Shown here one piece after another: positions 17,462 through 59,307 of a stretch of DNA of 64,000 nucleotides. The notes below the pieces were generated by a model, which saw only the letters and a list, made by a program, of their open reading frames with translations, did not search any database and was not told where the DNA came from. Source of the stretch: Ignavibacteriota bacterium (lineage in GTDB: Bacteria > Bacteroidota > Ignavibacteria > Ignavibacteriales > Melioribacteraceae); the NCBI GenBank assembly GCA_013112585.1, contig JABFGH010000025.1:1-64000 (forward strand), in the 5' to 3' direction. The first letter of the stretch is position 1; each line of letters opens with the position of its first letter. The position numbers were made by a program, and so were the translations under genes.

Positions 17462-17560
17462 ACGGATAAATAATTAATTAGCAAATTGTAATAGAAACTC
17501 AAGGTAAAGTAGATTGCTTGTCCCGAAAGGATTACCTTGAGGCAATCTGCTTATTAAACT

Positions 17561-17582
17561 AACAGATTGCAAGCAATCTGTT
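17561..17582. terminator. perfect 10-bp inverted repeat after the transpeptidase-like gene
   Basis: AACAGATTGC and GCAATCTGTT are exact complements separated by AA, about 100 bases after the stop at 17461. The following TTTTACTT is only a weak U-run, so termination is plausible but not strong. The flanking bases (gattgcttgtcccgaaagg) resemble the hairpin-repeat family at 58913-59235, so it may instead be a repeat remnant. Confidence 0.4.
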
Positions 17583-17703
17583 TTACTTATAAATAAACCA
17601 ATTTAATTTTTAGAATTTTGAGTAACTCATTAATATATCATTACTTATCAACATACTTTAATTCTATTGATGAAATGGGTTTAAGAAAGGAACCGGAATA
17701 ATA

Positions 17704-18165
17704 ATGAGTTTGACAACTTCAATTGCATTGCTGAAAAAAGAGCGGGCACTAATTCTTAGCGTAATAGATAAACTGAGTGATGAACAGTTATTAAAAATTC
17801 CAGCCGGATACAATAATAATGTGCTTTGGAATTTGGGACATATCCTTATCACCCAGCAATCACTCCATTATTTTTTATCGAGATTGGAAATGTATATTTC
17901 AAGAGAGATGATACAAACATTCCGCACGGGCACTTCACCTTCCGATTGGAAAACTCAGCCCGATATTATTGAGTTAAAGCAATTGTTTCTCGAACTACCA
18001 GACAAATTTTCTGAAGATTATAAGAAAGGAATATTTAAAGATTATCGGCCCTATAAAACCTCTGTCGGTGTTTCAATAGATAATTTTGAAGAAGCTGTTG
18101 CGTTCAATCATTTTCATGAAGGCACGCATACAGGAATTATTTTGGGATTGATGAAACAAATTTAA
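17704..18165 (+). CDS. DinB-superfamily protein
   Basis: A 153-residue four-helix protein of the DinB/YfiT-like group. The opening helix is LLKKERALILSVIDKLSDEQ, then NNVLWNLGHILITQQSLHYF with a candidate metal His, and near the C-terminus FNHFHEGTHTGIILGLM with two more His residues. Three His ligands for a divalent metal are typical. Members include thiol-dependent transferases, and the substrate here is unknown. Its stop codon lies inside a 40-base sequence identical to the 3' end of the gene at 20690-23338. Confidence 0.85.
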   Translation: MSLTTSIALLKKERALILSVIDKLSDEQLLKIPAGYNNNVLWNLGHILITQQSLHYFLSRLEMYISREMIQTFRTGTSPSDWKTQPDIIELKQLFLELPDKFSEDYKKGIFKDYRPYKTSVGVSIDNFEEAVAFNHFHEGTHTGIILGLMKQI

Positions 18166-18202
18166 ACATCAAACCAATAAGAGAACTTCATCAAGAAAAC
18201 AT
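18163..18202. repeat. 40-base direct repeat, copy A
   Basis: This segment is identical over 40 bases to 20691-20730, in the same orientation. It begins at the DinB stop codon and runs into non-coding DNA. In copy B the same bases encode, on the - strand, the last residues of the DUF5916 protein (VFLMKFSYWFDV). Copy A therefore looks like the leftover 3' end of a second DUF5916-type gene, or an ectopic duplication. Confidence 0.85.
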
Positions 18203-18446
18203 GACAAACTCCTGAGTTAAAGAAATTTTAAATAGTAGTCGGTATTTATTTTATTCAATTAAACTCCAGCAAGCTGTTTCAGCAGATAATTTCAACTAAA
18301 TAGATTATCTATATTTCAATTTGTTAATTCACCAATAATTAGTATATAAACTTTCAAATAACTTTATTACAAAACATATTTGCTTTATATCTGATTTAGC
18401 AATCTATTAGGATACTAACTTTATCGAATTTATTGAGCATATATTA
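18203..18446. other. non-coding stretch between DinB and AraC genes
   Basis: AT-rich DNA without a supportable gene. Apart from the 40-base repeat at its left edge I see no family or structure. An in-frame stop at 18408-18410 limits how far upstream the following AraC gene could start. Confidence 0.5.
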
Positions 18447-19571
18447 TTGCTGGGCGCCGGGCAGGGAATTTTATTAGCAGTATTATTGTTCACAAAAAAA
18501 ATCAACCATACTGCTAATGTTTTTCTCGCAATTGCAATAATTGCACTTTCTATTGATGTGTTTAACTCAGCTTACATACTTTTTAACTACTATACTGCAT
18601 TCCCTCACTTCCTTGGAGTAACATTCTCATTTCCATTTTTATATGGACCAATTTTTTATTTATATGCCAAATTATTAAGCTCTAATGATCAAACTTTTTA
18701 TAAGAAACTTTATTTACATTTTATTCCTTTTATAGTTGCCATTATTTACGCACTGGTCTTTTTTTATTTTAAGACGGGCGAGAACAAAATTGAGCTTGTT
18801 AAGTTGGGAATTGAAAATTCATTGCCAGGTTTAGAAATAATTAACTACTTAAAACCGGTTCATGGAATTATCTATGTAATTCTAACAATAATACTTGTAC
18901 GTGAATACAATAAAAAAATAAAATCCTCTTATTCTAATATTGACCAAATTAATTTAGATTGGCTATTGCATCTAACAATTGGTTTAAGTTTGATTTGGGG
19001 TATTGTTATTTTTAGTTATGTATATAATGAATTCAATAAAGAAGAAATTGAATTAGATTTTCTAATTTATATTGCAGCTTCAGTGCTAATTTATTCAATT
19101 GGTTATCTGAGTTTACGGCAACCGCAAATCTTTACTCAGTCTTTTATCGATACAGAAAATAAAACATTGCCTACAGAAAATAATTCAAATCAAAGAAAAA
19201 GTTATAAGCAGTCCGGTCTTAAGGCTGAAGAAGCTGAGCTGCATTTAAATAATCTTATTAAGTTGATGGAAAATGAAAAACCATATTTGACAACAAATCT
19301 TACTCTAAAAGATTTAGCGGATAAGCTGAATATATCAACTCATAATTTATCGGAAATAATTAATACTCAGCTTAACCAAAATTTTTATGATTTTGTTAAT
19401 AGTTATAGAGTTGAGGAAGTGAAGCGAAAGTTAACAGAAGATGACTCATTAAAATTTAGTTTAATTGCAATTGCTTTTGATTCCGGCTTTAACTCAAAAT
19501 CAGCTTTTAATTCAATATTTAAAAAACATACAAATGTAACGCCCTCACAGTATCGCAATCAATTAAAATAG
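18447..19571 (+). CDS. membrane-anchored AraC-family transcriptional regulator
   Basis: A 374-residue paralogue of the regulator at 1076-2197. About seven hydrophobic segments are followed by a linker and a C-terminal AraC domain with both helix-turn-helix units (LTLKDLADKLNISTHNLSE and IAFDSGFNSKSAFNSIFKKH, then VTPSQYRNQ). The start is uncertain. TTG at 18447 is the first usual start codon, but the reading frame stays open back to 18411 and encodes residues that fit the N-terminus of the family (FIEFIEHILLLGAGQG), without any ATG, GTG or TTG. An ATT or ATC start near 18423-18432 is possible. Targets are unknown. Confidence 0.82.
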   Translation: MLGAGQGILLAVLLFTKKINHTANVFLAIAIIALSIDVFNSAYILFNYYTAFPHFLGVTFSFPFLYGPIFYLYAKLLSSNDQTFYKKLYLHFIPFIVAIIYALVFFYFKTGENKIELVKLGIENSLPGLEIINYLKPVHGIIYVILTIILVREYNKKIKSSYSNIDQINLDWLLHLTIGLSLIWGIVIFSYVYNEFNKEEIELDFLIYIAASVLIYSIGYLSLRQPQIFTQSFIDTENKTLPTENNSNQRKSYKQSGLKAEEAELHLNNLIKLMENEKPYLTTNLTLKDLADKLNISTHNLSEIINTQLNQNFYDFVNSYRVEEVKRKLTEDDSLKFSLIAIAFDSGFNSKSAFNSIFKKHTNVTPSQYRNQLK

Positions 19572-19715
19572 TTTTCCAAATCGATTTCTAAAAACTTTTT
19601 TAGTATGATTAATAGAAGCGCAATAAAAACGAACAGGACAGTTAAAAAACTTATCATTTTTGCAATTGTGTTACGCATAAATATTTTTGCACCTTCATTT
19701 GAAGTTTTGTAATAC

Positions 19716-19773
19716 AAAAATTGGCAGAGGATTATTTCTAAAATTTTCTAAATAAAGCCTTCTGCCAATTTTT
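19716..19773. terminator. bidirectional terminator between convergent genes
   Basis: AAAAATTGGCAGA (19716-19728) and TCTGCCAATTTTT (19761-19773) are perfect 13-base complements. The stem has T-runs on its 3' side in both directions. It lies between the AraC gene ending at 19571 (+) and the outer-membrane protein gene ending at 19815 (-), so it can stop both transcripts. Confidence 0.75.
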
Positions 19774-19814
19774 CTATGCTGATTATATTAATTCATTTCA
19801 TTTTAAATGATAAA

Positions 19815-20387
19815 CTAAAATCCAAATTTAAAACCTAATTCCATTGACCAGCCGCTAAAGCTTTTATTGTAGAAATCTGCATAATTGACACCGGTTGCTA
19901 ATCTATAATTAACTGAATAACCCAATCCGAACCACTCGGTAATTCTAAAATTTACTGATGTTCCCGGTTCGAACACAAAGAAATAATCATGTCCGCCTAA
20001 GGTTTTAAGAGCAATTCGACCCATACCTGCCATAAAAGTCCCTGTTAAATAAAAGTTTTCTGAAAGATTATATTTATAGTTAGACTCAATCCCGCCATAG
20101 CCAAATGTAAGTTCGTCTTTGCCGGTTTGATTAATATAATTGCTCTCTCTAATATCTGGAATTAATCCGTGAGCAGTTAAACCAAAACTGACATTTTCAG
20201 TAAGATTATATCCGGCTCTCATTCCTCCGAACAAACCCCACTTACCATCTATCCTTTCTGCTCTACTTGTCAAGTCGATATAAAACTTATTTAACTCAAC
20301 CTCCCCGGATTGTTTTTGGGAAAAGTCTTGTGCAAATAATTGTGCTGAGATTAGTGCTGCCAATACTATGATTACTATATGTTTCAT
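19815..20387 (-). CDS. outer-membrane beta-barrel-like protein
   Basis: About 190 residues. The start is the ATG at 20387 and not the in-frame ATG at 20426, because an AAGGA box lies eight bases before it and it opens a signal peptide (MKHIVIIVLAALISAQLFAQ). The mature part is a run of amphipathic strands with many Tyr, Gly and Asn, ending MELGFKFGF with a C-terminal Phe, as in outer-membrane barrels. No function is assigned. It faces the AraC regulator across a shared terminator. Confidence 0.7.
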   Translation of the reverse strand: MKHIVIIVLAALISAQLFAQDFSQKQSGEVELNKFYIDLTSRAERIDGKWGLFGGMRAGYNLTENVSFGLTAHGLIPDIRESNYINQTGKDELTFGYGGIESNYKYNLSENFYLTGTFMAGMGRIALKTLGGHDYFFVFEPGTSVNFRITEWFGLGYSVNYRLATGVNYADFYNKSFSGWSMELGFKFGF

Positions 20388-20689
20388 TTTGTGCTTCCTT
20401 TTGTTAGTTAAAAATTGTTGATGCAAATCTGGGGAAATAAAAAGAGGTTTGCGCTCTTATTGATGGGATTGGACTTAATAGTATATTTTTTTAAGTCCAG
20501 ACTGATGGGACTGTACTTTTCACGTTTGTAGATTATAGTTAAATATTTGATTTAAGGGTTTTATCGAACAAAATGGTGGGAAAACTATTTGAGGTAAATT
20601 TTATAAAAAATAGTTGTATTAATAAAAAAATAATTGCAGTTAAAATAAATATTTTGAAAAAGGAAATCGGCAGAAGAATGAAATACTTT
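20388..20689. other. intergenic stretch
   Basis: No gene is supportable. The direct motif GTCCAGACTGATGGGACTG near 20490-20515 partly repeats GATGGGATTGGACTT just upstream, which might mark an operator or promoter region for the outer-membrane protein gene on the - strand, but the match is loose. Confidence 0.35.
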
Positions 20690-23338
20690 CTAAACATCAA
20701 ACCAATAAGAGAACTTCATCAAGAAAACATTGTTTGCTTCAGATTTCCAAACATTTGTAAAGTCTCTGCTTAAATCCAAATTACCGGGATGGTCTTCATC
20801 AATTTTATCGTGCGTCCAAACTAAATAGAATATGGAACCCGGCAGCACCTCCCATCGCAGAACAACATTTCCTCTTATTGATGTAAAATTAAAATCGGGA
20901 TTATCAAAAGTTTCTTGAACTGCCGGACCATCCCCATCCGCATCTATTATATATTCAAAGTTTTCTTCATCATAAATTATTGTTGAGCCATTTTGTCCGT
21001 AAACATTATATTCCATCGAATTCGGTTTTGCAAATTCTTTAAACATTGTGTATTTGCCTGTAGTAAAAAAAGGCTGAAGATATATTTGCAAACTTAATTG
21101 CGGACTAAATGACCAGTTCAATCTCATTTCAGCAGAGAAAGTTTCACGATCAATATCTGCAAAAACATATCTATCGCCGAATGTGGCTGTAGCGAGATCA
21201 TCTTCATAACTTGTAACCCACTGGTATTTTGAATTACTAAATTCATACTCCGGTTCAATTTCAAATTCAAGCTGCGGCATTGGTTTCCATTCAATTTCTA
21301 AACCGTAGTAGAAATTATATCCTCCCAATCCATTGCTTGAATAACCGCCGAATGGTTCAAAAACAATTTTCTCCCTGTTATCAGTATAGGCACTTAATCC
21401 AAAGGAATAATTTTCGGGAACACGTGCTTTGGGTCCGCCTCTTGTAAGAGTCACAGACACAGCCTCTGAATTGTAACTGAAGCTTGTATTGAATCCATAA
21501 AGATTAAGAAATTCAGCACCTCCGCTAACATAAATACCGCTGCGTGAAACATTTCCCTCGTAATCTGAAGTTCTGTTGTAGGCAGCATAAATATTTTTTC
21601 TTCTGAAAATATTATCCGGTTCGTACCAGCGGTAGCCGGTTACAACATGCCCGTTTATTCTATCGGCAAACCATTGCGAACCCAGATCATTATACTCAAA
21701 CCCCGGTGTGGCAGTGCCAATGGCAGCGTTCAAATAAAAGTTGCCCTTCTGTTTGTTTAGCATAAGTCTTGAATACATTCCTGCTAAAGATGTTCTGTTA
21801 GAATCAAGAGGCATAAAAGTTTTATCCGGTCGCTGCATATAACGATACGGCATTTCCTGAAGTTTTGTTATTGAACTTTTATTACCATGCAGGTAAGAAC
21901 CAATAAGCGAACCGGTAATAACGTATGTTTGATCTTCATCTAAAAATGTCCAGCCGTCCAATCCAAATGTAAATGCATTTTTTGCCAATAGTTTTTTGAG
22001 GTTATCATTTTCTATTTTTCTATTGACAGAAGTAAAAATAAAACCTAATGCTTGATTGCCGCTGTTAAACTCTTTTCGGGATCGAAGCACGGCATAGTGT
22101 GTTAAAGGTTCAACCGCTGCTTTAATTATTCTATTATCTTCAGTAAATATTTTAGCCTTAGTTTGCTCGGTAAATGCACTTAGTGCGCCAATGGACCAAG
22201 AATCATTAAACTTGCCTGTTAATTTTGCTGCCCCGATAATTTTTGTTTCCTCCGGATAATCTTCCCTTCCATCAGTTTCTATATCACCCTGCGGAGTTCG
22301 TCCAATTCTACGTGAATAAAATAGAGATGGTGTGCCGAAGTTAAATCCCCAATTTCTATTTGCACCTCCTCTTCCAAAATCAAAAATGTTTGAACCTTCA
22401 ATAAAAAAAGGACGCTTTTCTGAAAAGAAGTTTTCGAATGCTGATAAATTAACAATTGCAGGGTCAACTTCAACCTGTCCAAAATCTGGATTAATAGTTG
22501 CATCTAAATTTAAATTGCTGCCTATACTTATTTTTATATCACCGCCTATTGAAGTACGATACTGATTACTTTTGTAAAACGGATCATCTGCATCATGCCG
22601 TAAATATTGTGCTCTTTGAACAAAATACGGGAGTAATTCAATCCGCTGTTTAGTTTTAATTCCTTTCAATCCCTTTAAATCAGCAAACTTAGAAACAAAG
22701 CCGCTCTCCACTTTAGGCACCATAACCAGGTATGCAAATTCATGTTTACGTTTTATGTCACGATTTAAATTAATTCCCCAGGTCATTTCTTCGGCTTCGT
22801 TAAACCTAAGCTGGGTAAAGGGTATTCTTACTTCGGTGTACCAGCCCAAACTATCTACCCTCGATTCTGCCTCCCAAATTCCATCCCACGATTTATCCCT
22901 CCATACATCGTTGTAGAGTATCCCATCCGCAACTGAACCGCCGGGATTTACAGCAAAATAGTATCCGGTTCTATCATCGTTATAAGGATCAAGAAAAATC
23001 CAAAACCAATCAGACTCGGAAAATTTATCCCGTCTCATAAGAGCTAAGTCAATGGAATCGGGCTGAGAGTCATAAAACCTTCCGCTAAAATAGATGTTCG
23101 ATTCATCGTATGAAACCCATATCTCTGTAGGCTCGGTAACACCCATCCCCTCATTCGGATCTTTTTGCGTAAAGTTTCTTAAAGGCTCATTTAAATAAAG
23201 CGGTTCATTTAAGTAACCGTCAATCTCTAATGGTTCATCTAATTTGTAGGCGTGTACTGTAATTGTGCTGTCAGAATTTAGTGCAGGTATTATTGAAGTT
23301 GAGATAAATAGAAGGAAAAAGATGGATAAAATTTTCAT
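20690..23338 (-). CDS. CBM9-like / DUF5916 outer-membrane protein
   Basis: An 882-residue exported protein. After the signal peptide (to about residue 20) comes a carbohydrate-binding family 9-like domain (EPLEIDGYLNEPLY, later WVSYDESNIYFSGRFYD and DRTGYYFAVNPGGS), and from about residue 230 a long DUF5916 region of beta-barrel character (PYFVQRAQYLR, INPDFGQVEVDPAIVNLSAF, FFSEKRPFFIEG). The PDFGQVE and EKRPFF motifs are hallmarks of this Bacteroidota family. It probably resides in the outer membrane; its function is unknown. It ends FSYWFDV, and the DNA for this tail is duplicated at 18163-18202. Confidence 0.85.
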   Translation of the reverse strand: MKILSIFFLLFISTSIIPALNSDSTITVHAYKLDEPLEIDGYLNEPLYLNEPLRNFTQKDPNEGMGVTEPTEIWVSYDESNIYFSGRFYDSQPDSIDLALMRRDKFSESDWFWIFLDPYNDDRTGYYFAVNPGGSVADGILYNDVWRDKSWDGIWEAESRVDSLGWYTEVRIPFTQLRFNEAEEMTWGINLNRDIKRKHEFAYLVMVPKVESGFVSKFADLKGLKGIKTKQRIELLPYFVQRAQYLRHDADDPFYKSNQYRTSIGGDIKISIGSNLNLDATINPDFGQVEVDPAIVNLSAFENFFSEKRPFFIEGSNIFDFGRGGANRNWGFNFGTPSLFYSRRIGRTPQGDIETDGREDYPEETKIIGAAKLTGKFNDSWSIGALSAFTEQTKAKIFTEDNRIIKAAVEPLTHYAVLRSRKEFNSGNQALGFIFTSVNRKIENDNLKKLLAKNAFTFGLDGWTFLDEDQTYVITGSLIGSYLHGNKSSITKLQEMPYRYMQRPDKTFMPLDSNRTSLAGMYSRLMLNKQKGNFYLNAAIGTATPGFEYNDLGSQWFADRINGHVVTGYRWYEPDNIFRRKNIYAAYNRTSDYEGNVSRSGIYVSGGAEFLNLYGFNTSFSYNSEAVSVTLTRGGPKARVPENYSFGLSAYTDNREKIVFEPFGGYSSNGLGGYNFYYGLEIEWKPMPQLEFEIEPEYEFSNSKYQWVTSYEDDLATATFGDRYVFADIDRETFSAEMRLNWSFSPQLSLQIYLQPFFTTGKYTMFKEFAKPNSMEYNVYGQNGSTIIYDEENFEYIIDADGDGPAVQETFDNPDFNFTSIRGNVVLRWEVLPGSIFYLVWTHDKIDEDHPGNLDLSRDFTNVWKSEANNVFLMKFSYWFDV
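20691..20730. repeat. 40-base direct repeat, copy B
   Basis: Identical to 18163-18202. Here the bases are the end of the DUF5916 coding region on the - strand, including most of the stop codon. The two copies flank about 2.5 kb holding the AraC regulator and an outer-membrane protein gene, which recombination between them could delete. Confidence 0.85.
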
Positions 23339-25381: not shown

Positions 25382-26683
25382 TTACAAATTATCTAAATTC
25401 TCTTGAAGGTATTTAAAGTCAGGAGTCAATTCCCCTTTATATAATATTACCGCTCTTTTAATTTCATCAGGGTAACCGCAATCATCAAAAGATTTGTTCA
25501 AATCTGCATTAACAATACCCGGTACAAACGGCAGTAATGAAGTTGAGAAACTAACGGAGGAATCCTTCGGTAACTCTGTGGGTAGGTTATCAACAGCAAT
25601 ATCAACAACACCTTTACCCTCGTACCCGTCTGTAATATCATCCGTATCCGGATTATAAACATAAGCTGGGTTATCTGATTCAGTTGCTTTAGAGGTAAAT
25701 TCAATTGCGCCGTCTATATCGCAAGTTATATCACCAATTACCTGAAGCTTAAGCTCATTAATGTTACGCTTAATAAAATCTTTAGTAACAAATCTCGGAT
25801 ATCTTTCATCCCAATAAATTGCATTTACAAGGACGCTAAGTTTTTTCAAGTATTGTTCAAAATTAGATTTATATTTTTCAGGATAATCGTAATAATCCTG
25901 CAGTACGAATTTCATTTGGCTATCGATAGGAGCAGCCATATGTTCTTCCTTAAAAACAACTTTGTATAAAATGTTATTCTCATATTCTTTTTGATTCAAC
26001 AACTCCTCCGGTGAAATTTCTTTATGCGGCAAGAGGTCAAAAACTTCCTGCGCACCTTGCGAAACATTACCGTAGCCTGCAAATCCGATTACGAGCGGAC
26101 AAAGTTCATCCGGAATTTCATTTTTTTCAAATTCAGATTTTAATTCTGCAATTTGTTTTTTTGCATCATCAACATCTGCGTATTCATAAGCCGGTTTAAT
26201 TTTATTAAATGGTGTTTCGTAGCCCAATGCAGTATATCTTTTACCCATTCCGTGGAATGTATCAATCATTCCTGCAAGTCCGGCATAATTACCAAAAAAT
26301 ACTTTCCTTCTGCCTTTATCATCTTTAATGCACTCATAATCTATAAGTGTACATTTCAAATCAATTAATTTTTGGAGCATAGGCATGTTATAAGGCTGAC
26401 CTTTAATCGTGTGTGAAAATTCGATATAAGTTCTATTTGGCTTTAGTAATTTTATTGGAATTTCTTTTACTGCAAATACAATTGGGCACTCATCTAAATC
26501 CTCTTTAATCGTTCCGCCGGCTTCAATATATTCAGCATCACTAAATGCTCTAGTCTTAAATGATTGAAGAACAGTTTCAATATTATGCTTTTCCTTTAAT
26601 TCTTTAACATGCTTCGGAATTATCGGAACTCTTCGTTCCCAGATATTCTTATCTTCTCTTCGTACGCCAATAATTTTTTTCAT
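25382..26683 (-). CDS. lysine 2-oxoglutarate reductase-like protein (LKR/SDH family, AlaDh/PNT N domain)
   Basis: About 433 residues. The start is the ATG at 26683, which has GGAG five bases before it; an in-frame ATG at 26707 lacks this. The N-terminal domain belongs to the AlaDh/PNT type (GVRREDKNIWERRVPIIP, FAVKEIP, EFSHTIKGQPYNMPML), in the version seen in the lysine-ketoglutarate-reductase half of alpha-aminoadipic semialdehyde synthase; VIGFAGYGNVSQGAQEVFDL is the nucleotide-binding loop. The saccharopine dehydrogenase domain is not fused to it. The likely reaction joins lysine and 2-oxoglutarate to give saccharopine. A partner dehydrogenase is not in the window. Confidence 0.75.
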   Translation of the reverse strand: MKKIIGVRREDKNIWERRVPIIPKHVKELKEKHNIETVLQSFKTRAFSDAEYIEAGGTIKEDLDECPIVFAVKEIPIKLLKPNRTYIEFSHTIKGQPYNMPMLQKLIDLKCTLIDYECIKDDKGRRKVFFGNYAGLAGMIDTFHGMGKRYTALGYETPFNKIKPAYEYADVDDAKKQIAELKSEFEKNEIPDELCPLVIGFAGYGNVSQGAQEVFDLLPHKEISPEELLNQKEYENNILYKVVFKEEHMAAPIDSQMKFVLQDYYDYPEKYKSNFEQYLKKLSVLVNAIYWDERYPRFVTKDFIKRNINELKLQVIGDITCDIDGAIEFTSKATESDNPAYVYNPDTDDITDGYEGKGVVDIAVDNLPTELPKDSSVSFSTSLLPFVPGIVNADLNKSFDDCGYPDEIKRAVILYKGELTPDFKYLQENLDNL

Positions 26684-26782
26684 ATTATCTCCATAAACTT
26701 CATTCATAAATTTTCAAACTTAAATTTCAATCTAACAAAAAACGATATGATTGTCACTATATAGAATGTGTTTAAAAATAAA

Positions 26783-33695: not shown

Positions 33696-35267
33696 TTAAA
33701 CCTTGCTCTCCATTGTTATCACAGGTAATATCATCTCTTCCATCGAAATACCGCCATGCTGAAATGAATCTTTATAATAGCTTAAATATTTATGATAATC
33801 AGTAGGATAAACAAAATAATAATCTTCCTTTGAAATAATATAACTAATCGTAAGTCCCCTTTTGGGTAATTTCCAATCTGCCGGATTTTTAATAAATACA
33901 GCATGCTTATCTTCGGCTTTCAAATTTCTGCCGAACTTAAAACGCAAATTAGTAGATGCCTCCTTATCTCCTAAAACTTTTGCTCCCCGCAGCGTTCTTA
34001 TGCTTCCGTGATCCGTAGTTACAATTATCTTAGCATTTTTCATTCGCGATAAAACCTGAAAAGTACCAAGTAGCGAGGAATGCTTGAACCAGCTATTAGT
34101 CAGTGATCGGTAGGCAGCTTCATTGGGTGCAATTTCTTTTAATATTTCAGAGTCCGATCGTCCGTGAGCAATCATATCGAGAAAGTTTACAACTACCGCC
34201 ATCAGATGAGTTTTAACATGCGACCTAATATTCTGTTCAAAATTTCTTCCAACTTCCGGGTCAATCACTTTCATATATTTCAAATCATTTTTTAACCGTT
34301 TATTATTTCTATCTAACAAAAGTTGAAGCAATTCTTTTTCATGTTTATTCTGGCTGCTTTCATCATCTCTGTTACTCTGCCATAAATCGGGATAGTATTT
34401 TTCTATCTCCGACGGATATAAACCTGCAAAAAGTGAATTACGAGCATAAGGAGTTGCGGTAGGCAGTATCGAAAAATAGTAATCCTTTTCAATTGTAAAC
34501 ATATCCCGCAGATGCTTTTCCATTACCAGCCATTGATCCATTCTCAAACAATCTATAACGAAAAAAAATACCGGACCTTCAGCATCATCTAAATGAGGGA
34601 ACACATATTTTTTCACAATGTCGGTAGTAAGTGTAGGTCTATCTTCTTCACTTTTCTGATTTATCCATTTCGTATAGTTTTTTTCGATGTATTTACTGAA
34701 CTCTTTATTACATTCTTTTGTTTGATCAGTTAATGTTTGGCGTAAGTCAACTTCAGGGTGCTGATCCAATTCCAAACCACTGTTTACAAGTTTCAAATAA
34801 ATATCAATCCAGTCAATATAATCGGGGTTCTCTAAAAGCTTCATTGTTATTTGATTAAAATCCTGAAGATAATCTTTGGCAACATACTCGCTCGATATTT
34901 TTTTTCTTTCAAATATTTTTTTACAGACCAAAAGTATTTGCGAAGGAACAACAGGCTTAATAAGATAATCATCAATCTTACTTCCGATTGCATCATTCAT
35001 TAAACTTTCTTCTTCACTTTTAGTAACCATAACTACAGGTATGTTCGGATTCAAATCTTTAATTTCAGCTAAAGTTTCCAAGCCTCCCATCCCCGGCATC
35101 ATTTCATCTAAAAAGATCAAATCAACACTTTCATTCTTAATAAAATCAATTGCATCTTCGCCGTTAGTTACGGTATCAACCTGGTAACCTTTTTCCGATA
35201 GAAATATAATGTGCGATCTTAACAATTCTATTTCATCATCAATCCAAAGAATTTTTTTCTTATTCAT
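33696..35267 (-). CDS. porX: PorX-type response regulator with PglZ domain
   Basis: About 523 residues. The start is the ATG at 35267, with GAGG four bases before it; longer in-frame extensions run into sprA and lack this. Residues 1-120 form a receiver domain (ILWIDDEIELL, phosphoacceptor Asp in IFLDEMMPGMGG, VMVTKS). The C-terminal half is an alkaline-phosphatase-like PglZ domain with FFVIDCLRMDQW, ATPYARNSLFAGLYP, NFLDMIAHGRSD and IIVTTDHGSIR carrying metal ligands. PorX controls type IX secretion in Porphyromonas and relatives. Here it sits 34 bases after sprA, within the same operon. The PorY kinase is not in the window. Confidence 0.92.
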   Translation of the reverse strand: MNKKKILWIDDEIELLRSHIIFLSEKGYQVDTVTNGEDAIDFIKNESVDLIFLDEMMPGMGGLETLAEIKDLNPNIPVVMVTKSEEESLMNDAIGSKIDDYLIKPVVPSQILLVCKKIFERKKISSEYVAKDYLQDFNQITMKLLENPDYIDWIDIYLKLVNSGLELDQHPEVDLRQTLTDQTKECNKEFSKYIEKNYTKWINQKSEEDRPTLTTDIVKKYVFPHLDDAEGPVFFFVIDCLRMDQWLVMEKHLRDMFTIEKDYYFSILPTATPYARNSLFAGLYPSEIEKYYPDLWQSNRDDESSQNKHEKELLQLLLDRNNKRLKNDLKYMKVIDPEVGRNFEQNIRSHVKTHLMAVVVNFLDMIAHGRSDSEILKEIAPNEAAYRSLTNSWFKHSSLLGTFQVLSRMKNAKIIVTTDHGSIRTLRGAKVLGDKEASTNLRFKFGRNLKAEDKHAVFIKNPADWKLPKRGLTISYIISKEDYYFVYPTDYHKYLSYYKDSFQHGGISMEEMILPVITMESKV

Positions 35268-35301
35268 TTTTCCTCGTGTAAAAAGTAAATGGTGTAATAA
35301 T

Positions 35302-38300
35302 TTACTGAATAGAGATGTGAACATCCAATCCGGCTTCACTGGTTGAAGTTTCCGGAATTCTTGCAGCACCTTCGGGCACAACTGTTGTTGATTTGTAAAA
35401 TAAGGATAAGGTAACTTTAGAACTGATTACATATTTTATACGCGGTTCAATTGTAGTTCTTGTTGTTCCGTCCTGCGGTTTACCTTCCTCAATAAAATCA
35501 TCCATTTCAAAAATAACAATTGAGTTTCTTCCGCTTGTATAGGAAAGTGAAATTTCGATATCGTTTTTAAGTGATACTCCAAATAATGGAATCTCGAATC
35601 CTGATTTACTGAAACTTGCCGTAAAGCTGATATCCTTTTGGAAGGACTCACTAATGTTTCTAGTTGCAATACCTAAGTCGAACGAGGTTTTTGTAGAGTA
35701 TTTAGCGCTGCCTGTTAAATTACCGCCCCACATATCATTAAATGTTAAATTCAAACCAATTAGGGGTGCAAAGCCGTAGCTTACTGTCTGTTTCTGAATC
35801 TCTTCATTCCCGTCGGGACTAATTCGCAAACCTTCGCTATAATTTGATGTATAGGCATGATTTAATGAAACTCGTTTTGTAAAATTTTTAAAAAATCCAA
35901 TTTTCTCTAACCCTGTCCAGCTTAAACGCCAATTTGGTCTTGGTATATATTTAGTAAAATCTTTTAAAAGTGGAAGTTTACTGACAAAAGGTGCGCTTTC
36001 AAATCCTTCAAGAAAAGCATCGGATAAACTTTTATTTGGATCATCGGAATCGGGGTCGTAAAGTTCCGCTACTTTTGTGATACCCGAATTAAAACTGCTT
36101 AAGAAAAACGTAGGCGGAAAACTTATGAATGATCTATTGATATTTTTAGATGAAGCAATATTAGTAATCGTAACACCGCCGTCAGCATCTGTTTGAATTG
36201 TGCTCGTTTTATTTATTCCCCAATCAACCTTCCAATTTAAATCAATTTGGGCTCCTTCCCACAATGGTCTGGATGTTTTAAAGTCAATGGAGTTTTTCTG
36301 TGAAAAATTATCCGATAAGTTTCCGTTTGGTGCTCTGTCACCGGGATCATGAGAAAGCCCAAGCTGATAAAGTCTTCCGGGTCCACTTCTATCACTCTGA
36401 TTAAATCCCCAGAAGTTACTAAGTCCTGTCCCTTCAGATTTTAGTCCGCTGTTTGCTACTGTGTTCTGCTGACTAAAATTAATTGAGAACTGATCGTAAT
36501 CGAAGAAGAGCCACTTGGCACTCAACTTCATAAAATTTAAAAATTTCATAATTGTAGAAGGTCCATCATCTATCGTGGAATCCTGCAGAGCTTCAGCATC
36601 GATAATTCCACTCGCGCTATCCTCCTGCACAATATTAGTTCTCTTAATCTCATCATCTAAATCGCGTTCATTTCTTCCCCGCGATCTTCCCCTTGACCTT
36701 GAAGCAGGTGTTCTTCCCCTACTGCCCGCCTGCGTATCCTCTTTGAATAGCGGTGCAGTTAAGGATTTCCATCTTAATGTTAAGCCTGCTCTTATGTTAT
36801 TTGTAAATTGAGAGCTTCTGCCAAGTGTATCCTGCTGAAAATTGAAACGCCAGTTATAGTTCACATTATAATTTGCAGTTAGAGTAAAGTATCTGTTAAT
36901 ATCCCATAATGTAGGCAGCGATGGGTTAAGTTTGAAATCGACTGACTGCCTGTAATTATTATCCTTTCCGAAAAACTCACCTTCAAAAATATCTCCGAAA
37001 ACTGCACTGGAATTCCTTTCTCTATCGTTCTCGCCTGTTAGTAAGTGAGCTAATGATGAGGCAATATCTAAAGAATAATTAATAGATGGATTTAAGAATC
37101 CGCCCTCACTAAGTTTCCAGCTAAACTGCATACTACGGTTAGCAGTAAAATCTCTTTGTACATTTGGTGATGAACCGGAAGTTCTATTTTGAGAAAATGT
37201 TCTGTTCCTTTTTGCTGTAAGATTAAATGAAAAATTCTGCGGTGTAAAATAAAATTTAACATTTCTGTAATCATCAAAAATGGAGAATAGCCAACCCAGT
37301 ATTGGTATATTTGCCGGATAAATAAAATAATCATTACTTAGATTGATTGAATATTTAGCCGATGCATTCCAAATCCAACTGGAGTTTTTAGATACTGTAG
37401 GATTACGGCTTAATGTTTTACTGTAATTGAAACCAAAAACCAAACTGTTAAAAGTATCCCTGAAGTACCATTTATTTGAAGGCACTTTTAGTTTGATGTT
37501 AGACAGAGTCCAAGTTTCTTTAACACTTATAGTCTGTGAATTAGTTCTTATATCTTGTGCCAGTTCCTTAGCTTTTTCGGGTGATGCACCTTGATCATCA
37601 ATAAATCTTCTTTCCGCTTGAGCAGCGGCGCTATCAACAAATATATCCGTACCGGGTATATACAGAGGCTTTGCAACAGATTCATTTCTTGAGTAGTTTA
37701 CTTTTAAATTGCTTCCCTCAAGATTAATGGGCAGCGCTTTAAGAGCATCAAGTTCAAGAGAAACTCCCCAATTTGTTCTATCAACCCGTGATCCGAATCT
37801 ATCGGCTAATCGGTGAAAGTAAGGATCGGTCTTGCTCATATTTGCATTAACAGTAAGCAGATCTGCGAAAGCCACAGTACCGGATGTACTGTAAGCCCAG
37901 CCGGGTGAGTCGTCTGCCTCGAGTACACGGAGTTCATTTATCCAGATGTTACCGGAAACTGATTCATTAAGATCATCTTGCTGCACAGGATTAAGAATAC
38001 CCACTAAAAAGAATTGAACGGAAGTAAGGGTCGGAAGCCCCTTAACGCCAAATGTATGACCGGGTTGTTCGGCAACCTCTTTTGTTATAAGTTGTCTTCT
38101 CTGTTCAAGTGTTCTGCCTTCTTTTATTGCAGTTATTTCTTCAAATATAATCCTAACCTCATTCCAGCCTGCCTTCACCGGCTGCCGGTATTCATAAAAG
38201 TTTGCCGTGTCTGTACCAAATCGGAAGTACACCTCCGATCCATAATAATTTTCATCTTGATAAAAAGAAACCGAAGAGGTTGGTCCATTGAATTCATCGC

Positions 38301-58747: not shown

Positions 58748-58912
58748 TATTAATATTTCGGTATAAACTTGCTATAATTCCCCTGTGGAATATTCATTTA
58801 TAAACTGCACAAAAATATCGACTTTTAGGTTAATAATAAAGTGTTGAAATTGGGTAGATGGATAAATATTGTTTCGGAGTGATTGCTTATTCTCCACAGC
58901 ATAAAATAAATT

Positions 58913-59001
58913 GTCATTACGAGTCCGTTAGCTGACGCACGAAGTAATCTCAAACCAAAGATTGCTTCATTCAGATAAACGACATCGGAATTCGCAATGA
59001 C
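58913..59001. repeat. hairpin repeat, copy 1
   Basis: Begins GTCATTACGAGTCCG and ends CGGAATTCGCAATGAC, ends that are inverse complements with one or two mismatches. Between them are GAAGTAATCTC and GAGATTGCTTC-like arms. It can fold into a long stem of the kind seen in widely dispersed intergenic repeats. 89 bases. Confidence 0.85.
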
Positions 59002-59047
59002 AGAATAATGATAGAAAAAATATATTTTTAATGCCCCAAAATACCCT

Positions 59048-59135
59048 GTCATTACGAGTCGTGCTTTTTACGACGAAGTAATCTCAATGCGGAGATTGCT
59101 TCACTCCGATAAACGACATCGGAATTCGCAATGAC
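59048..59135. repeat. hairpin repeat, copy 2
   Basis: Same ends (GTCATTACGAGTC, CGGAATTCGCAATGAC) and same arms as copy 1. The left part differs (GTGCTTTTTACGACGAAG) and the loop is ATGCGG instead of AACCAA. 88 bases. Confidence 0.85.
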
Positions 59136-59146
59136 AAGTATAAATT

Positions 59147-59235
59147 GTCATTACGAGTCCGTCGGCTGACGGACGAAGTAATCTCAAACCAAAGATTGCT
59201 TCATCCCGATAAACAACATCGGAATTCGCAATGAC
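59147..59235. repeat. hairpin repeat, copy 3
   Basis: Nearly identical to copy 1, with CCGTCGGCTGACGGACGAAG in its left part and the same AACCAA loop. The distances between copies are 46 and 11 bases, so this is not a CRISPR. 89 bases. Confidence 0.85.
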
Positions 59236-59307
59236 ATTTTTTTCGCAAGTAAAGGTTTCGTACTACCTCTTAAGTTGGTATTAATACTTGGCGGAACAGA
59301 AATAAAA

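Follow-up and report, generated by a model that had tools for sequence, protein, structure and literature searches.

How did the last 40 bases of one gene come to stand, unchanged, at the stop codon of another? The question is raised by a locus in a 64,000-nucleotide stretch of the draft genome of an Ignavibacteriota bacterium (assembly GCA_013112585.1, contig JABFGH010000025.1, positions 1 to 64,000; hereafter the window), where a 40-base exact direct repeat links the end of a DinB-family gene to the 3' end of a DUF5916 gene and encloses an AraC-type regulator gene convergent with the gene of a predicted outer-membrane barrel (Table 1). The favoured explanation, to which we assign a probability of roughly 55%, is that the repeat is the scar left when the regulator/barrel segment was inserted between DinB and DUF5916.

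The repeat and its source

As the first-pass annotation of this DNA had stated, the two copies are identical at 40 of 40 positions and lie on the same strand; their spacing is 2528. Its description of their contexts is also correct: copy 2 comprises the last 12 codons of the DUF5916 gene (VFLMKFSYWFDV) and two of the three bases of its stop codon, plus two bases of the preceding codon, and copy 1 opens with the TAA stop codon of DinB (18163-18165). Except for that codon, copy 1 lies outside any recognised gene. A chance origin is excluded, because the longest exact direct repeat in 100 simulated order-3 Markov sequences of 64 kb each measured only 15-21 bases. No third copy was found by BLAST of the genome's own 77 contigs (queries 18163-18450 at E <= 0.001 and 20427-20730 at E <= 1). 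The sequence beside both copies diverges immediately on the left and on the right, so that the edges are abrupt, the exception being the motif ATGAAA 12 or 13 bases to the left of the copies, which extends the BLAST alignment at 92% identity over 18151-18202. The repeat is genuine and is the scar of a rearrangement, judged to be young since its copies are identical; deletion of the 2528 bp between them is possible in principle. That one copy was created by faulty assembly is very improbable: the genome is a draft in 77 contigs, yet both copies join complete genes, and a misjoin through the repeat would still require the repeat to exist twice. Also, 40 bases are short relative to usual read lengths.

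Homologs of DUF5916 occur in all 79 genomes of the family, with more than one match in 61 of them. The C-terminal block K-[FL]-[ST]-Y (mostly KFSYWFD-like) is conserved across the 32 DUF5916 tails compared (three from the genome itself and 29 from relatives), and copy 2 is therefore in its native place. The genome encodes two further DUF5916 proteins (58% and 44% identity), whose genes agree with the repeat at just 27 and 29 of their last 40 bases, against 40 of 40 in the adjoining gene; copy 1 thus fits the adjoining gene itself.

These comparisons bear on the proposal of the first-pass annotation that copy 1 is the tail of a second DUF5916 gene, lost from between DinB and the regulator. The copy does hold codons and a stop, and multiple DUF5916 genes are frequent in the family. 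However, a tblastn search with the three DUF5916 proteins of the genome recovered no decayed homology beyond the repeat: the match within 18163-18446 (E 6.8e-7) spans 21 residues, of which 14 agree, but the repeat itself supplies 12 of these and the nine residues before it no more than two, and 18203-18700 gave background matches only (best E 0.82). The minus-strand frame behind copy 1 is soon closed by stops, and identity is complete where paralogs keep 27-29 of 40 bases. A decayed full-length gene would look different, and this origin, which we regard as improbable, was rejected. The annotation's broader suggestion, a trace of duplication, survives in a narrower form, as the duplication of a 40-bp gene end on either side of a segment that forms a unit in other genomes.

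Read on the minus strand as the end of a DUF5916 gene, copy 1 would terminate with a TAA at 18164-18162 and share the sequence TTAA with the DinB stop. Convergent genes can overlap by 4 bp in four ways, of which TTAA is one, and the distribution of their overlap lengths shows a jump at 4 bp (PMC2174442). The list of 56 genes in the window contains five tail-to-tail pairs with gaps of 243 (the regulator/barrel pair), 54, 3, -9 and 6 bases, three of the five overlapping or standing within 6 bp. As convergent genes are so tightly packed in the window, an ancestor with DinB and DUF5916 tail to tail is plausible.

Table 1. Coordinates of the features of the repeat locus (window positions).
Feature	Position	Strand	Basis or remark
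DinB_2 family gene	17704..18165	+	Pfam PF12867, 2e-15
TTAA, DinB stop (+) overlapping would-be DUF5916 stop (-)	18162..18165	.	putative ancestral tail-to-tail junction, provided that DUF5916 originally ended at copy 1
Repeat copy 1	18163..18202	.	orphan duplicate of the DUF5916 3' end; first bases are the DinB stop
Segment between the copies, 2488 bp	18203..20690	.	putative insertion; in other genomes the two genes have different neighbours
AraC-type regulator, probable ATC start at 18423	18423..19571	+	HTH_18/HTH_AraC; orthologs, start analysis
Hairpin in the regulator/barrel intergenic region	19712..19777	.	possible bidirectional terminator; inverted repeat, predicted fold
Outer-membrane protein, predicted 8-stranded barrel	19815..20387	-	ORF, alignment, AlphaFold, Foldseek
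DUF5916 gene, intact, 882 aa	20690..23338	-	Pfam PF19313, 9.5e-63
Repeat copy 2	20691..20730	.	last 12 codons and 2 stop bases of DUF5916 (minus strand)

The gene pair between the copies

The barrel gene begins with the ATG at 20387 and encodes 190 residues (the frame is open from a TTG at 20426), and its product has no Pfam or NCBIfam match. An AlphaFold model built with seven sequences predicts eight strands, with a mean pLDDT of 71.9 and values below 50 for 38 of 203 residues, and its best solved-structure matches in Foldseek were OmpA (8.0e-7) and NspA (1.6e-6), at 14% identity. The hairpin between the two genes does not appear in the list of the terminator scan.

Some match to the barrel protein is present in 40 of the 164 genomes of the order, the genome itself included. 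In all six of the closest genomes besides its own (48-60% identity: G158, G133, G023, G036 and G131, all five of another family, and G069, of the same family), a convergent regulator of 45-62% identity adjoins the barrel gene. These distances (48-59% identity for the barrel when aligned) far exceed the divergence of the repeat copies, which, with 0 differences in 40 and neutral evolution of copy 1 assumed, is at most 7.2% (95% bound). The pair is flanked by a GMC oxidoreductase and a peroxiredoxin in G023 and G133 (one genus with a common neighbourhood), by a gamma-glutamyltranspeptidase and DUF559 in G036, by a weak SnoaL match (below cut-off) and Memo in G158, by a response regulator and TrmB in G131, and by DUF6530 and a protein without Pfam match, followed by a TonB receptor, in G069. 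Because neighbours differ between genera, with five neighbourhoods among six genomes, the pair is a unit found at different sites.

A DUF1572 protein, which we take to be DinB-related, is encoded near the pair in G023 (L048:5811-6269); this may be coincidence.

Origin of the scar

What the locus presents directly is an exact repeat with edges at two stop codons, a match to the adjoining DUF5916 gene and not to its paralogs, and an enclosed gene pair that occurs elsewhere. From these features we infer how the ancestor was arranged, which way the event ran and by what mechanism. In the ancestor, DinB on the plus strand and DUF5916 on the minus strand would have stood tail to tail, their stops overlapping in TTAA. 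A segment of 2.49 kb carrying the convergent regulator/barrel pair would then have entered DUF5916 at a point 40 bases from its 3' end, and these 40 bases would have been duplicated. The duplicate at 20691-20730 would keep DUF5916 complete, while that at 18163-18202 would remain next to the DinB stop as an orphan without coding function. A single insertion that duplicated 40 bp would account for the identity of the copies, for edges that coincide with the two stops, for neighbours that are both intact and for the enclosed unit.

Several results weigh against this history. No integrase or transposase domain was found in the eight genes between 17704 and 26707, nor among 20 proteins neighbouring the pair in relatives. 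Exact direct repeats longer than 14 bases were not found flanking the pair in the six relatives (2.5 kb on each side, except for about 600 bases on one flank in G069), which indicates that the pair does not generally create flanking repeats. An empty site was not recovered either, as no relative examined shows a DinB/DUF5916 junction. DinB itself is rare: at E <= 0.001 it has matches in 3 of the 79 genomes of the family and in 13 of the 391 of the class, counts that include the genome itself. A search of genome contigs for named relatives gave a single distant match of 27% identity. In G009, G019 and G141, the relatives examined for this purpose, DUF5916 does not adjoin DinB, and DinB was not found in four other DUF5916 neighbourhoods (G005, G038, and contigs C35 and C30 of the genome itself). 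In G009, DinB lies 2.2 kb from a 57% homolog of the window gene 25382-26707 (L051:7914-11886), a gene that stands 7 kb from DinB in the window; this arrangement may hint that the old DinB neighbourhood was different and may be a remnant of an older shared neighbourhood. Trees, from which the G158 barrel was left out, gave no donor for the pair of the window and no supported fork around it. Base composition gave a mixed result, the regulator having the third lowest G+C of the 56 genes and the barrel an average value (rank 33 of 56), and was not used as an argument for foreign origin. Ku was not found in the genome itself (0 of 1), in a search that was positive in 1 of 14 control genomes (B. subtilis).

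In anatomy, the locus comes closest to the work of a site-specific recombinase, since lost or acting in trans, that integrates DNA at the 3' end of a gene; repair or template switching at a break is about equally likely. Since both are mechanisms of the insertion outlined above, their odds overlap with it. The recombinase could have been a tyrosine integrase that acted at the DUF5916 3' end, the locus then being a decayed element resembling a cis-mobilizable element (CIME), in which attL, attR and two cargo genes were kept and the integrase and transfer genes lost. We consider this rather unlikely. The 40-bp repeat and the restored gene end speak for it; the missing recombinase domain, the lack of such repeats around the pair in relatives and the small size of the segment (2.5 kb) speak against it. 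We know of no DUF5916 gene used as an integration target, nor is the family, to our knowledge, among the target gene families of integrative elements. Decayed elements of this kind retain attL and attR (PMC5704250), and the likeness extends to direct repeats in the 8-60 bp range, one of them being the 3' end of the target gene, to an intact target gene and to an integrase that is gone, whereas the present locus differs in that a recombinase domain was not found, the segment is very small and a second example was not found. As a recombinase is a defining feature and was searched for and not found in the eight genes here and the 20 proteins beside the pair in relatives, the locus is not classed as an att-bounded integrative element. 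The target-site duplication of a transposon similarly places a direct repeat at both sides of inserted DNA; here, however, no transposase domain was found in the eight genes, and usual target-site duplications are shorter than 40 bp.

An error of repair or replication, in which template switching or fill-in mended a break at the junction and in doing so copied 40 bases from the end of DUF5916, whether or not the segment was captured at the same time, is unlikely on the whole but deserves some weight, given the abrupt edges in the absence of a mobile enzyme and the short ATGAAA match near both left edges. Ku-type end joining was not found, and repair alone leaves the edges at both stop codons unexplained; Ku-independent template switching or break repair is still a candidate. 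The least probable reading is that of a selected function, in which a readthrough RNA from DinB, carrying a perfect 40-nt complement to the end of the DUF5916 mRNA, would regulate it. By orientation, a plus-strand transcript through copy 1 would be complementary to the DUF5916 mRNA tail.

With the insertion as the preferred explanation, the repeat illustrates how a unit may be added at a crowded convergent junction with both neighbours unharmed and a readable scar left. If the copies were an active att pair, small cargo-only units at the 3' ends of protein genes would be worth seeking in this group. A more tentative proposal is that the repeats bound a transferable two-gene unit that entered at a gene 3' end, and that its regulator, a protein with a hydrophobic N-terminus, exchanged AUG for a conserved AUC or AUU start codon, which would hold its translation down or make it depend on how much initiation factor 3 is present.

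Start codon of the regulator

The scar is the product of an event ordinary in kind; the start codon of the regulator is the more surprising and the more easily tested point. Comparison of the sequences indicates that an AUC or AUU start is probable. The conserved protein sequence begins at the ATC at 18423, and the first canonical in-frame start is a TTG at 18447. Six of the seven barrel-paired regulators (those of the window, G023, G131, G133, G158 and G069) have no in-frame ATG, GTG or TTG before codon 8, and in G069 a TAA stands immediately 5' of the ATC; the seventh, that of G036, starts with ATG. Five of the six have ATC as the homologous first codon, and the remaining one has ATT. Of the 236 other isoleucine codons in these genes 36 are ATC, and codon usage alone would give at least five in six with P = 4e-4, in a test chosen after the codons had been seen. 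A G-rich stretch (GGAG, AGGA or AAGG) occurs 7-10 bases upstream of the first codon in all six.

Pairwise synonymous to non-synonymous differences amount to 64:82 in codons 2-16, 132:105 in codons 17-40 and 399:399 in codons 41-120, against 4:67 in the five codons upstream; these are counts from six related sequences compared without gaps, and thus not independent. The contrast between upstream and downstream counts indicates that coding constraint begins at the ATC/ATT codon. Among 25 other homologs (the remainder of the 30 best loci of a longer list, G036 included), a canonical start (ATG, GTG or TTG) is found at or before position 1 in 24 and at position 6 in one. Inner TTG or ATG codons (codons 8-17) exist in the six regulators, and their use would cut off conserved residues; an inner UUG or AUG could nevertheless serve as the start if the first residues are dispensable. 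A search for orthologs of the regulator in 395 genomes of the phylum returned five at E <= 1e-90, one of them the genome itself, and did not enlarge the AUC clade.

Bacterial genes starting at AUU, AUC or AUA include infC, pcnB, ccpN and cvfC1, and in Staphylococcus translation is reported to be lowered by a conserved AUA start in the repressor gene ccpN and by an AUU start in the small gene cvfC1 (PMC13009471). Compared with what is described there of the two Staphylococcus genes, the present case is alike in that the conserved start of a regulator gene is not AUG and is preceded by a Shine-Dalgarno-like stretch, and differs in that the codon is mainly ATC, the regulator is of the AraC type and the case is known from its sequence alone. 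A literature search pairing the AraC family with an AUC start codon found nothing, in a coverage that leaves out most subscription journals. If true, the AUC start would add a clade of transcription factors to the short list of bacterial genes starting at AUU, AUC or AUA.

Other features of the window

To the left of the repeat, all 20 listed genes between 271 and 19571 lie on the plus strand and belong to mixed families (SUKH, YdjM, DUF1697, AHSA1, DinB and a weak carbonic anhydrase match), in a gene list that left out two overlapping minus-strand open reading frames. An integron-like array was considered for this region and dropped, as no regularly repeated spacer was present among 20 of 39 repeat families. 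A strong hairpin (-33.5 kcal/mol) at 17500-17610 forms part of an interspersed repeat, relatives of which occur on contigs C7, C9, C12, C17 and C42 of the genome itself, and a cluster of short exact direct repeats at 58906-59240 perhaps represents another interspersed family. Also, a single open reading frame at 33696-35381 combines a PglZ domain with a response-regulator receiver domain.

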